Under the pieces are notes generated by a model, which searched no databases, was not told the DNA's origin, and saw only the letters and a list, made by a program, of their open reading frames with translations. A stretch of 64,000 bases of DNA. Origin: Chitinophagaceae bacterium (GTDB lineage: Bacteria > Bacteroidota > Bacteroidia > Cytophagales > Cytophagaceae). The position numbers and the translations under genes are program-made. The DNA is taken from NCBI GenBank assembly GCA_028288365.1, contig JAQBNU010000098.1:1-64000 (forward strand). The letters run 5' to 3'. Shown here piece after piece: positions 2,868 through 11,011 of the stretch; the first letter of the stretch is position 1, and each line of letters starts with the position of its first letter.

Positions 2868-3395
2868 TTACATCATGTAAAATGATTTCATGATTTGATT
2901 CCCTAACCAGGTATTGTAGCGATCGCCTTTATTTTGATGACAGAAAGATAAAATAAAGATCCGATGATTTTTTAAATAGTACCGTTGTTCGATAATCAAT
3001 GTGATGTTATTGAATTGTACCTGAAACGTGAGAAACCAATATTGCTGGTCGTTGCGGTCTTTCTTTAGTTTGTCTTCCATCAATACGGCAGAAGGATCGT
3101 TCTTTTTAAATTCTTCACCCAGGTAATGCGCGTAGTCGAATAAATCTTTGGTTTGATTGTCGTAAATGTTGCGGATAGAAAGTGTAATGTTCTCTCTGAA
3201 TTTATCACGTGCCGTGCCGTAAGGCGACATGAGGATCACCAGTGTATCTCCCTCGTTGGGCTGGGTGGCCTGCCAGTAGGGTGCCAGTTCAATGTAATAA
3301 TCCCGTGTACGAATAGAAGGAATGAGCGGTGCGCCGTATCCATACTGAGCGACGGAAACCGCGGGTAACAAGATCAGAAACAAAAGTAGTTTCAT
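2868..3395 (-). CDS. Secreted hypothetical protein
   Basis: 175 residues. The N-terminus is a signal peptide (MKLLLFLILLPAVSVAQ, AQ cleavage site common in this phylum). The rest is soluble, alternating beta-like and charged stretches, with YWQATQPNEGDT and QQYWFLTFQVQFNNITLIIEQRYYLKN-type segments and no recognised catalytic motif. I do not recognise a family. It is followed downstream by arfB after 74 bp and preceded by another small secreted protein, so it sits in a cluster of exported proteins of unknown role. The coding call rests on the clean signal peptide and full-length frame. Confidence 0.75.
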   Translation of the reverse strand: MKLLLFLILLPAVSVAQYGYGAPLIPSIRTRDYYIELAPYWQATQPNEGDTLVILMSPYGTARDKFRENITLSIRNIYDNQTKDLFDYAHYLGEEFKKNDPSAVLMEDKLKKDRNDQQYWFLTFQVQFNNITLIIEQRYYLKNHRIFILSFCHQNKGDRYNTWLGNQIMKSFYMM

Positions 3396-6201: not shown

Positions 6202-7137
6202 TTATTTTACCGAGATAAAGAAATTCACAATCTCTTCTTCTGCCTTGAAATCGTTGCACACATTGCCGATGATGGCTTTGGGTAAGTACTGTCGTCCACC
6301 CGGCCAGGTATGACCACCGTTTACGATTTTGATGAAAATAAAAGGAGTGCCCGAACAGTCATAACTTGTTTTCACCGCGGTACACAGATCAGGTTCTTCC
6401 CGGTTGGACATGTGATGCGCAACGGAAAGTTCAGAACAGTGATTCAAGGTTTTTATTTTGTGAACCAATTCATGTGTCGGTATAAAATGGTTTTCTTCGT
6501 TTTGTTTAGATGCTCTGCCAGGTCCATGTCCTCCTTCGAATGGAATCAATGGATCCTCGGTGCCATTGATGAGTAGTACCGGTGTGGGATGTCGAAAGGA
6601 ATAATCGTCTATGATGGATTGAGGAATGCTGGCACATACCGGCGCAATGGCTTTGATGCGCGACGATAATTTGTCTGCTAAGAACAAAGAGAAAATTCCT
6701 CCACGCGATAAGCCGGTGCAGAAAAAGGAAGAGGCATCTGCGTGGTAGTATGTCACCAATGTATCCATGAGTGTAGAAATGAATTTTACATCGTCGATGT
6801 CTTGTCGATTCTCTTTCACTAAACTCCCCACACCTTTCATGCTCCAGCTTTTATTCAGCGCGTTGGGATAAACCACTATGAAATTATGTTGATCTGCGGG
6901 CACATTCAAATTATACAAGGCCACCGTGTTTTCATAATTCCCTCCACCGCCATGTAAGGCGAAGATCACGGGAAGAGGGTTGTTTGGCGTGTAACCGGGA
7001 GGTAAGTGAATCAGGTATTCTCTTTCCAAACCATCGACTGTTATTTTTTTTGCCAGATCTACTGCATCACTTTGTGCTTGTAGTTGCAACGCGAAGAAAA
7101 GAGAAAGAGAAAATAGAGAGTAGCGGAATGTGTTCAT
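6202..7137 (-). CDS. Secreted alpha/beta hydrolase, CE1/PHB-depolymerase-like esterase
   Basis: 311 residues with a signal peptide ending LQAQ (about 1-22). The fold is alpha/beta hydrolase: oxyanion-hole motif HGGGG (62-66), nucleophile elbow GLSRG with Ser144, acid NGTEDPLIPF with Asp195, and GGHTWPGG with His276. The HTWPGG end and the overall spacing match the LpqC/polyhydroxybutyrate depolymerase/feruloyl esterase group (CE1). It probably cleaves ester bonds in an extracellular polymer such as hemicellulose decorations or polyesters; the exact substrate cannot be read. It is downstream of the chitin-binding metalloprotease but separated from it by a terminator, so it is a separate transcript. 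Confidence 0.82.
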   Translation of the reverse strand: MNTFRYSLFSLSLFFALQLQAQSDAVDLAKKITVDGLEREYLIHLPPGYTPNNPLPVIFALHGGGGNYENTVALYNLNVPADQHNFIVVYPNALNKSWSMKGVGSLVKENRQDIDDVKFISTLMDTLVTYYHADASSFFCTGLSRGGIFSLFLADKLSSRIKAIAPVCASIPQSIIDDYSFRHPTPVLLINGTEDPLIPFEGGHGPGRASKQNEENHFIPTHELVHKIKTLNHCSELSVAHHMSNREEPDLCTAVKTSYDCSGTPFIFIKIVNGGHTWPGGRQYLPKAIIGNVCNDFKAEEEIVNFFISVK

Positions 7138-7258: not shown

Positions 7259-9763
7259 TCAATACTTCACGAAAGAAACAGTCGATGCATTCGACGCACC
7301 TTTCATCGTTACCAGGTATGTTCCCGGAAGGAGAAGGGTGTGATCTATTTTTATCAAATGATTTCCTTGAGAAAGACTTCCGTTCGCTACCGTAGCAATC
7401 ATTTTGCCGGAAAGATCGGAAAGATAAATCTGCACCTGATCGTCTGATGCGAGTGTAACAGAAATCACCGATTCATTGGTCACAGGATTAGGATAAACAG
7501 ATAACACCGTTGTGCTTTCCTGATCTGATGGTGCGTCAGAAAGTCTGGAAGTACACGTCCCTTGGCTTGTCCACGGTTGACCGCTGCCTGCGCCTCCGTT
7601 GTGGGTACTCGGTGTATCGCCTTGTGTCCAGAAATTGGCAAGGTATTTAATGCCCAGGTATTGCACCGTCATGCCATTGGTATAAGCGGTTGTCGATACC
7701 CACACCGGTGCGGTACATGTTCCGCCAGATGCAGTAATGGTGACACTCACCGCAGAAGAAGTGACACTCACCACGGTTGATTGATTGTCATACGCTTTTG
7801 CCGTCAGGCTGTAAGTGCCCGCTGCTACGCTGCTCCATGCATAGCTGTATGGACTCGTCAAATCTGTTCCTAATAAAGTAGTACCGTTGTAGAATTCTAC
7901 TTTGTTGATGCTGCCTCCGGTTTCTGTTGCGGTCGCATTGATGGTAATGGAAGCCGGTGCCGTAAAGCTGGCGTTGTTGGCCGGTGAAGAAATGGAAACA
8001 GTTGGTGATAACGCAGAGTTGACGATCACTGTCACCGCGGTAGAAGTAGTATTCACTACCGGTGATTGATTGTCATACGCTTTTGCTGTCAGGCTGTAAG
8101 TACCCGCTGCTACGTTGCTCCATGCATAGCTGTATGGACTGGTTACATCTGTTCCCAATAAAGTAGCACCGTTATAGAATTCTACTTTGCTGATGGTTCC
8201 CCCAGTCTCTGCTGCCGTCGCATTGATGGTGATGGAAGCCGGTGCGGTGAATATCGTATTGTTGGCCGGTGAAGAAATAGAAACAGTAGGTGAGACGCCG
8301 GCAATCGTGATGCTGAAGGCTTTGTCTGCATACGTATTGTCATACTCTGTTACACGAATGGTAAAATTAGAAGTGCCGTTGGTCGTCGGTGTACCGGTGA
8401 TGGCACCAGTGAAACTGTTCAAACTCAATCCTGTCGGCAAGGTACCAGACAGTACTGTGAAATTATAAAACGGAACACCACCGTTAGCAACGATGGTCTG
8501 GTTGTAAGCCGTAGTCTTATTGCCGTTAGGAAGAGAAGTGGTCGTGATGCTCACGGGTACAAAAGCGGAAGTAGTTCTTAAGGTATAACCGACGGCTTGC
8601 AACACCAACAAATTCACTTTGCTGATCAACCATCGGCCATTGGGCATGAAAGCAGCGTACTCACTACCGAAGACACCTTTCTTACTGATGCGGTCTGTTA
8701 ATTTTAAGGCATCAACCGTTTGTCCGTTCACAAAGTGATCGCTTGCATCGATCGGAACGTTAGCACCTTGATAAGCTACCACCGCTGCATCGTTGATGTA
8801 GCCTTGTGTTTTGTAGGTTTGAAAGACCGGATAGTTAGGATTGAAACTCAAAGCATGTCCCATTTCATGCATAGCAATGGAATAGAAGTCATGTTGTTCG
8901 CCGGAATAATTCGTGGCTACATACCAGGTATCATCGGTGATGGAAGTGTTCCATCCCAATGTATTGTAATTGCCCTGGTATTCGGCTTCAAAGGATCCTG
9001 ATTTTCTCAGTTGTGTAACCACTCCACTGCGTGTTTGAAAACTGTAGGTGGAAGGTGCGCCACCAGAGCGGTGTACGTCATCGTCAAATCCATAGGTGTA
9101 TAACAGATAACCGGTATAGGCACTTGCGTTGGTGACATAGTTACCACCATTGGTATAGTTGTCGTTCCAAATGTAGGTTTGTTGTGTGCCGGCAGGGGTA
9201 GCATCAAAATTATTGCTAGTCAGAAAATACGACCAGTCGTCTGCGGCTTGACGCACAATGGTTTTGTTGACGGCGGTGTTATAAAAATTATAACGGGTGT
9301 CTTGTGAATAATCCAACACGATGTTGAAGTTCAACACCGGTGTGGCCGGATCCTGATCGATGACTTTGATGGGAAATGTTTGTGTACCCGAACCGGTAAT
9401 GGTCAGTGTATAGTTTTCATCTCCTGCACCACGGTCAGGGAAAATGGACAGGTAGAAATCTACCGGATTGGTATCGTTGAAGGTGATGGTCTTTGAAGGC
9501 CCGGTAGAATTGGGTGTGTACGAAGTAGAAGAAACATCAAAATACAAACGCGGATGATTGGCGCTGACCGTGATCGTTAAGGGTGCGGAAGGAGGAGTGA
9601 ACGTTAACTTGATGGCAGGGTTTGCCATGTAACCTTCCCAGTCGACCAGTGTGATGGTCTTCCCGGATAAATTTCGGCCGAAGGCGTCTTTGACCGTGAC
9701 TTGCGCCTGTACCGCCCATGCAGAAAGCAAAAGCAGTGTCATCATCATTTTCATTTTTAGCAT
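7259..9763 (-). CDS. T9SS-secreted zinc metalloprotease with Ig-like and chitin-binding modules
   Basis: 834 residues. Order: signal peptide (about 1-20, ending VQAQ); an N-terminal beta domain with a Calx-beta-like NYTLTITGSG strand; a metalloprotease domain with the zinc motif HEMGH at residues 299-303 (AMHEMGHALSF); a putative Ig He_PIG-like domain (about 405-490, LPTGLSLNSFTGAITGTP); two near-identical bacterial Ig domains (each starting PTVSISSPANN); a CBM5/12-type module (PVWVSTTAYTNGMTVQYLG, later QGDTPSTHNGG, Trp-rich); and a C-terminal T9SS type A sorting domain (VYPNPVTNESVISV to the end). It is predicted to be secreted through T9SS and to degrade proteins while bound to chitin or a similar glycan. 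A third zinc ligand further downstream was not identified with certainty. The two bacterial Ig domains (about 7740-8285) are a recent tandem duplication. Confidence 0.88.
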   Translation of the reverse strand: MLKMKMMMTLLLLSAWAVQAQVTVKDAFGRNLSGKTITLVDWEGYMANPAIKLTFTPPSAPLTITVSANHPRLYFDVSSTSYTPNSTGPSKTITFNDTNPVDFYLSIFPDRGAGDENYTLTITGSGTQTFPIKVIDQDPATPVLNFNIVLDYSQDTRYNFYNTAVNKTIVRQAADDWSYFLTSNNFDATPAGTQQTYIWNDNYTNGGNYVTNASAYTGYLLYTYGFDDDVHRSGGAPSTYSFQTRSGVVTQLRKSGSFEAEYQGNYNTLGWNTSITDDTWYVATNYSGEQHDFYSIAMHEMGHALSFNPNYPVFQTYKTQGYINDAAVVAYQGANVPIDASDHFVNGQTVDALKLTDRISKKGVFGSEYAAFMPNGRWLISKVNLLVLQAVGYTLRTTSAFVPVSITTTSLPNGNKTTAYNQTIVANGGVPFYNFTVLSGTLPTGLSLNSFTGAITGTPTTNGTSNFTIRVTEYDNTYADKAFSITIAGVSPTVSISSPANNTIFTAPASITINATAAETGGTISKVEFYNGATLLGTDVTSPYSYAWSNVAAGTYSLTAKAYDNQSPVVNTTSTAVTVIVNSALSPTVSISSPANNASFTAPASITINATATETGGSINKVEFYNGTTLLGTDLTSPYSYAWSSVAAGTYSLTAKAYDNQSTVVSVTSSAVSVTITASGGTCTAPVWVSTTAYTNGMTVQYLGIKYLANFWTQGDTPSTHNGGAGSGQPWTSQGTCTSRLSDAPSDQESTTVLSVYPNPVTNESVISVTLASDDQVQIYLSDLSGKMIATVANGSLSQGNHLIKIDHTLLLPGTYLVTMKGASNASTVSFVKY

Positions 9764-9870: not shown

Positions 9871-9889
9871 TTTATCAAGTGCGTCGTTT

Positions 9890-10162
9890 GTACTTTGGAG
9901 GTCCTCCATCGTACTTCCGAAGTACTCCGTTGGACTGATTCAGTCCTCCATCGTACCTCCGAGGTTCAACGTTGTACTTTTTTAGTCCTCCGTTGTACCT
10001 CCGAGGTTCAACGTTGTACTTTTTTAGTCCTCCGTTGTACCTCCGAAGTCCAACGTTGCACTTCCGAAGTGCTCCGTCGTACCTCTGAGGTCCTCCATCG
10101 GACTTCCGAAGTCATCATTAGTACCTCAGAGGTACTCGGGCGGACCTCGGAGGTACTAATGA
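9890..10162. repeat. Tandem array of thirteen 21-bp units, most with a central palindrome
   Basis: The array runs without any insertion or deletion: unit starts fall every 21 bp from 9890 to 10142. Each unit is G plus a 12-base block plus an 8-base tail. The block is usually a perfect or near-perfect palindrome (TACCTCCGAGGT, TACTTCCGAAGT, GACTGATTCAGT, CACTTCCGAAGT) and the tail is CCTCCATC- or TCAACGTT-like. Paired differences preserve the palindrome, for example CCTC/GAGG against CTTC/GAAG and CACTTC/GAAGTG. Because 21 is a multiple of 3 one frame stays open, but it starts only at TTG and encodes a monotonous seven-residue repeat, so I do not call it a gene. It fills most of the 573-bp gap between divergent genes at 9763 and 10337. 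Confidence 0.9.
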
Positions 10163-10283
10163 TGACGGTTTACTTTATTTCATTCTCGAGCAAATGCTCG
10201 ATGTCAAAATAGGCACAAGGTCAATCTTACGTCAGCAGATCTTCTTTACACGTTTTATAATCTTCAGAGGCAGAAAATGTTAA

Positions 10284-10314
10284 TTAGGTTTTTTCCATGA
10301 AACCCATAGTTTTG
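10284..10314 (+). promoter_or_regulatory. Candidate Bacteroidota promoter
   Basis: TAGTTTTG at 10307-10314 is an exact match to the TAnnTTTG -7 element of Bacteroidota sigma-ABfr promoters. A -33-like TTAG lies 19 bases upstream. Transcription would begin near 10320, some 17 bases before the ATG at 10337. Confidence 0.45.
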
Positions 10315-10336
10315 AAGGTGCATTTATCCTCCTTCG

Positions 10337-11011
10337 ATGAAAAGCATTTATTTACTTTTTGCTGTACTCTTCTTTCTGTCTCAGAAAGGCTATGGAGCGT
10401 TTGACGATACCCTTAAAACAAAGAAAACTTCTGCGCTTTATGTAGGCTTGGGTTCGGATACTTATTATGGTTCTTACTTTTATGGTTTCGGTTATTACGG
10501 ACTCACTTCAAAAACCAACTTACTTGTTTTTGGCATATCACGAAGTTCTACGGTAGGACTGGGTATACAATTTGCTTTGAAGCCGAACTTATTTGTAAGT
10601 CCGGTCATTGGCATAAGCAATGGCAAATCACTTTCAGGAGGTGCCAACGCCGTCTTGGCAGAAGGCATTGTACCGGGATTTCTTTCTTCCTATTACGGCG
10701 ATCGCATTTATTATGACCAGGGACTTCTGTACTATAATGTATTGCAACAGCTAGGACCTGTCAGTAATAATTACCTGTGGTACTGGGTCACCGCCGGATA
10801 CAACATCAGTAGCAAGGTGACGGCTGGAGTTCATGCCGAACAATTGTATAATTCCTACACGACAGGTGGAGAGGCAAGCAGTTTATACTTTTACCTTGGC
10901 CCTTATGCACAAGCTAATTTTAAAAATGGAGCGAACATGCGGTTTACGACAGGCTTCGATTTTAATGCGGGAAGTTTTGCCAGAGTAAGTATTTTGATTC
11001 CTGTGCGATGA
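10337..11011 (+). CDS. Secreted hypothetical protein, probable small beta-barrel
   Basis: 224 residues. A signal peptide (about 1-20, ending GYGA) is followed by alternating short beta strands rich in Gly, Tyr and Phe (YVGLGSDTYYGSYFYGFGYYG, split by turns), ending in a strand SFARVSILIPVR. The composition and strand rhythm fit an outer membrane barrel or a surface beta protein, with no catalytic motif. Upstream it has a good promoter match and the 21-bp array. It converges with the trypsin-like protease gene, only 9 bp apart, leaving no room for a terminator between them. The family is not recognised. Confidence 0.7.
   Translation: MKSIYLLFAVLFFLSQKGYGAFDDTLKTKKTSALYVGLGSDTYYGSYFYGFGYYGLTSKTNLLVFGISRSSTVGLGIQFALKPNLFVSPVIGISNGKSLSGGANAVLAEGIVPGFLSSYYGDRIYYDQGLLYYNVLQQLGPVSNNYLWYWVTAGYNISSKVTAGVHAEQLYNSYTTGGEASSLYFYLGPYAQANFKNGANMRFTTGFDFNAGSFARVSILIPVR

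Follow-up and report, generated by a model that had tools for sequence, protein, structure and literature searches.

Bacterial genomes carry small dispersed repeats for which the usual explanation is a high-copy REP or a relic of a MITE, while arrays of the iteron or parS type consist of direct repeats whose spacing of about two helical turns suits protein binding. BrickBuilt, a minisatellite-MITE of Porphyromonas gingivalis, is built of a 23-nt unit and has a leader and a tail with terminal inverted repeats (PMC4596501). REP elements and BIMEs are palindromes of 20–40 bp, present in high copy, with a GTAG or CGTC tag at one end (PMC3733652).

The stretch of 64,000 nucleotides analyzed here (the window) contains, at positions 9890..10162, a tandem array of thirteen 21-bp units, to which no strand is assigned and which resembles each of these systems in part. 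With BrickBuilt it shares the occurrence in Bacteroidota, the imperfect short tandem repeats, the variable number of units and the dispersed, intergenic location (PMC4596501). However, the unit is 21 bp and not 23 nt long, the text of the BrickBuilt paper makes no mention of palindromic units whereas the arrays found here are built of dyads (PMC4596501), and in place of BrickBuilt's leader, tail and terminal inverted repeats there is a leader (roughly 75 bp) shared solely at one Sporocytophaga locus (locus a). REPs are likewise small palindromes, dispersed, extragenic and at times tandemly reiterated (PMC3733652), but here the palindromes keep a strict 21-bp phase at about six loci per genome, and the units cluster in six arrays rather than being scattered in high copy.

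The arrays are also direct repeats at about two-turn spacing, as are iterons and parS-type sites; in contrast to these they occupy several loci per chromosome, and no replication or partition gene was found among the flanking genes examined. They also differ from CRISPRs (24–48 bp repeats with unique spacers) in having units of 15+6 bp, of which the spacer is repeated too. The array is best described as akin to the BrickBuilt and REP elements, although the full definition of neither applies. No description of such arrays was found within the limited literature collection searched.

Architecture and symmetry of the array

The unit starts lie at 9890 + 21n (n = 0–12) when the array is read in register, without indels, and the TRF call (9888–10113, period 21 bp, 10.8 copies, 61% matches, 0% indels) agrees with this; the first-pass annotation had thus described the thirteen units correctly. 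TRF also reported higher-order periods of 42 and 84 bp. Each unit is composed of a 15-bp dyad, G-N-AC-Y-TC-N-GA-R-GT-N-C (also written GNACYTCNGARGTNC), followed by a 6-bp spacer, which is TCCGTT, TCCATC or AACGTT in most units, and the window contains 12 matches to the unit pattern (up to 3 mismatches) against 0.04 expected. In one variant unit (9932..9952, in-register reading, strandless) the palindromic core TGATTCA replaces TTCNGAA, a change in both arms. The right edge of the array coincides with a 23-bp inverted repeat (10111..10166, also strandless; 96%, 10-nt spacing) that includes the last two units.

The array is located between two divergent genes. The minus-strand gene (7259..9763) encodes a secreted protein of 834 aa with Big_7 and He_PIG Ig domains, CBM_5_12 and Por_Secre_tail; a 285-bp tandem duplication within it (7778–8293, 88%) probably corresponds to two Big_7 domains. 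The plus-strand gene (10337..11011) encodes a DUF6733 protein of 224 aa, whose promoter-proximal DNA (10279..10336, plus strand) is conserved in the sister genome G002, where there is no array. The array had been placed just upstream of a promoter match, but a sigma-70 scan found none; what can be read is a TAnnTTTG-like box, TAGTTTTG, at 10307–10314, about 145 bp past the array, which we take to be a −7 promoter box of the Bacteroidota type.

The dyad axis passes through unit position 8, and 82% of the seven arm pairs are complementary over the 13 window units, a value equalled by none of 20,000 column-order permutations. All seven pairs match in four units, six in five units, five in one and four in three, so that the earlier view of most blocks as palindromes is fair, though it does not extend to every block. 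The difference between units is 0.15–0.20 at dyad positions 1, 3, 4, 6, 7, 9, 10, 12, 13 and 15, versus 0.37–0.58 at positions 2, 5, 8, 11 and 14.

The accompanying claim, that where one arm changes the other often changes to match, held for some pairs and not for others. Of the 58 distinct units in this genome, 39 are complementary at pair 5–11 (null 28, P=0.002), the inner pair 7–9 is conserved and coupled in this genome, and a broad alignment contains 40 cells changed on both sides versus 25 in shuffles (0/500), which exceeds every slid register. Among the distinct units of this genome no coupling was found at pair 2–14 (P=0.20), which is complementary in 29–41% of units and thus unpaired in about 60–70%. 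When right halves were shuffled within arrays, complementarity fell from 309 to 273 in this genome, from 933 to 893 in the remaining arrays elsewhere, and from 291 to 280 in Sporocytophaga (P=0.015), where coupling is weak. Compensatory changes exceed shuffles, yet the coupling of the arms is moderate in size, and it could be mimicked by shared ancestry of unit types or, likewise, by template-switch repair of imperfect palindromes.

The arrays are dispersed and change in number of units

Six arrays, all intergenic, are present in the 3.8-Mb assembly (in the window and on contigs C143, C112, C137, C31 and C9). They have the unit G-N-AC-Y-TC-N-GA-R-GT-N-C + 6 bp in common, and isolated units are few. 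The window array (9890–10162) and that of C143 (8864–9085; L046 4865–5086) are 76% identical in register and have unrelated flanks, and the variant 21-bp unit GGACTGATTCAGTCCTCCATC is identical in both, in the same register. Such sharing of variant units suggests that multi-unit blocks, rather than single palindromes, were dispersed. Core variants TGATTTA are present in C112 and, in inverted form, in C9, and homogenization at 42 bp was observed, e.g. in the arrays of C31 and C137. Inspection by eye of the flanks of the six arrays detected no shared leader or tail.

The arrays adjoin unrelated genes (for enolase, glutamine synthetase III, PrsW, histidine kinases, DivIC and an ice-binding protein), and no protein family recurs among the 30 flanking proteins. 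Divergent, convergent and tandem gaps are all common among the loci with both neighbors visible.

Comparison with the sister genomes revealed that the sites of the arrays vary. At the window locus, G002 retains the DUF6733 gene (89% identical protein) and about 60 bp upstream of it, lacks the array and has a different upstream gene; at the C143 locus the sisters likewise have a different upstream gene. The array is absent from the eno-ftsB gap in G001 and G003, in which another intergenic repeat-like sequence (GCGTGAGGGATAG...GATCCGAGCGAGGACTTG...GCCCGACCCG) takes its place (L167 and L166, respectively), and from the PrsW gap in G001–G003; in G003 the latter gap (L171) contains what appears, by eye, to be the coding sequence of a REP-associated (Y1-type) transposase. 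A clean empty site with a target duplication was not found at the four loci in the sister genomes, the gaps being too rearranged or carrying other repeats.

Searching related genomes for the 21-bp consensus, as had been proposed, yielded arrays that are patchy in the Bacteroidota, intergenic and beside unrelated neighbors. In the same family, matches were limited to this genus and to genus g6, which we take to be Sporocytophaga because the units of the G008 arrays are the same as those of Sporocytophaga sp. BIN9 (L137 and L139). The order-level search found matches in 8 of 390 genomes and the phylum sample in 2 of 394 other Bacteroidota genomes, the latter count having been obtained with model R2 and stricter filters. 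The exact two-unit pattern was present at 25 loci in 84,980 genomes: in Prevotellaceae, Dysgonamonadaceae, other Bacteroidales, Prolixibacteraceae, Sunxiuqinia, Tannerella forsythia, Sporocytophaga and Hymenobacter, and also in an uncultured bin, two Zoogloea (with weakly palindromic arrays) and two bins labelled Planctomycetaceae, which may be taxonomically misassigned. A core similar to ACYTCNGARGT was found again in distant families. No match was found in phages, plasmids or viral contigs.

Two turns of DNA correspond to 21 bp, and this phase, noted in the first-pass annotation, is near-universal: in a set of 41 arrays the spacing is exactly 21 in almost every case, and about 14 spacings are of 20 or 22 (±1 bp steps in L119, L123, L127, L132, L134 and L135). 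At an orthologous Sporocytophaga locus with shared flanks (locus b) the arrays comprise 7, 12 and about 18 units. Between species, 107 substitutions separate these arrays, each of which stays strictly in register, while the leader beside them (roughly 100 bp) differs by 64 substitutions and 15 gap events; since the arrays were compared unit by unit without gaps, this contrast is partly built in and is supportive rather than proof.

At Sporocytophaga locus a, L061 and L062 have in common the roughly 75-bp leader, which ends in CTTGTCCAAATCGTACTGCNGCAGTACGATTTC, and their outer flanks are unrelated; G016 contains a second copy of the leader motif to the right of the array, and the motif is absent from the arrays of this genome. 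In a Sporocytophaga MAG (L133), near-identical two-unit fragments lie at 3114–3155 and 7064–7105, in direct orientation and 3.95 kb apart.

Possible roles of the array

A TTG-started frame of 105 aa with the peptide (T-S-E-V-x-x-x)n is indeed open on the plus strand (9895..10212), as the first-pass annotation reported, and it was rightly set aside there as a gene. That the array codes for a heptad-repeat protein (T-S-E-V-L-R-x) appears very improbable, even though the variable dyad positions 2, 5, 8, 11 and 14 are the third codon positions of this frame and the arrays of this genome contain 3 stops versus 13.7 after column shuffling, a procedure that breaks linked core variants. A low dN/dS in the frame had been named as a result that would speak against selected palindromes; pN/pS is 0.33–0.62 among Sporocytophaga orthologues (the comparison at locus a, with a two-unit offset, being less reliable than that at locus b), but it is similar in the antisense frame (0.41–0.86), because the dyad is self-complementary, so that the one-strand-only purifying selection of a heptad-repeat gene is not seen. 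Coding is further argued against by the spacer, which has no third-position excess in any group (positions 17 and 20: 0.44 versus 0.52), by the stops that interrupt 23 of 37 arrays (L136 has 16) and by the ±1 bp steps of some arrays. In addition, Sporocytophaga has no stop deficit, the array itself contains the TTG start, and a Pfam search of the array frames found no family; a protein-coding role is therefore unlikely. Transcription into a series of small RNA hairpins (or the formation of such hairpins by single-stranded DNA), the alternative raised earlier, also appears unlikely. The whole strand folds far below shuffles (z of −10.9 as RNA and −9.1 as DNA), but this is expected of any palindromic array, and a unit by itself folds weakly (0 to −4 kcal/mol as DNA). 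A 15-nt hairpin would have positions 7–9 as its loop and require pair 2–14 in its stem; the arrays have the reverse, with 7–9, unable to pair in a hairpin, conserved and 2–14 mostly unpaired. Rfam returned nothing above the gathering score, only sub-threshold matches to eukaryotic microRNAs. The position in a divergent gap would suit a local operator array governing the two neighbors, but in the sister G002 the DUF6733 gene and the conserved DNA just upstream of it occur without the array, which makes a private operator improbable, and the tandem and convergent gaps holding other arrays beside unrelated genes argue against a link to divergent neighbors.

The main rival to dimer binding is a purely neutral or selfish minisatellite, in which slippage and template switching would amplify palindromes, quasi-palindrome correction would renew their symmetry, and phase would be a by-product of turnover that involves no host protein. 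This reading, possible though not favored, is consistent with the patchy distribution, the change in copy number by whole units, the 42-bp homogenization in C31 and C137 and the variable array sites in sister genomes, and recent turnover of units can make a tandem repeat appear phased without selection. Against it, strongly diverged units (61% matches in the window) are still in exact register, distant families have a similar core, and template switching should also renew pair 2–14, which is not renewed.

The reading that we prefer, at roughly even odds, is a dispersed, non-coding intergenic minisatellite whose phase and dyad would be constrained by a putative dimeric DNA-binding protein. Conservation and symmetry of the bases extend right to the axis, as would suit a symmetric dimer that recognizes duplex DNA, and the array probably serves as a series of docking sites, set at even intervals, for such a protein. 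Judging from the comparisons between arrays, arrays would originate through dispersal of multi-unit blocks and change in size by whole 21-bp units, via slippage or recombination; the 21-bp step and the symmetric core ACYTCNGARGT are retained, and drift affects the spacer and one base in three of the dyad. Each unit of duplex DNA would be bound by one symmetric dimer, with dimers side by side on one face. The cooperative dimer suggested in the first-pass annotation best fits phase and dyad, but neither a protein that binds the arrays nor a cognate gene was found, which counts against it. The putative binder could be a host architectural protein, for whose site the rarity of the arrays (2/394 other Bacteroidota genomes) is odd, or a recombinase that spreads the element. 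More tentatively, the arrays may form a system in which a dimeric protein recognizes GNACYTCNGARGTNC and binds cooperatively along one face of 7–20 phased sites at few intergenic loci, serving as a nucleoid-organizing or element-spreading platform exchanged between lineages.

For annotation, heptad-repeat open frames of the type (TSEVLRR)n are thereby explained as probable non-genes. The family combines a small number of loci per genome with an exact two-turn phase and with a duplex-type dyad that is conserved across distant Bacteroidota, and this combination provides a specific, testable DNA motif with which the putative binding protein may be sought.
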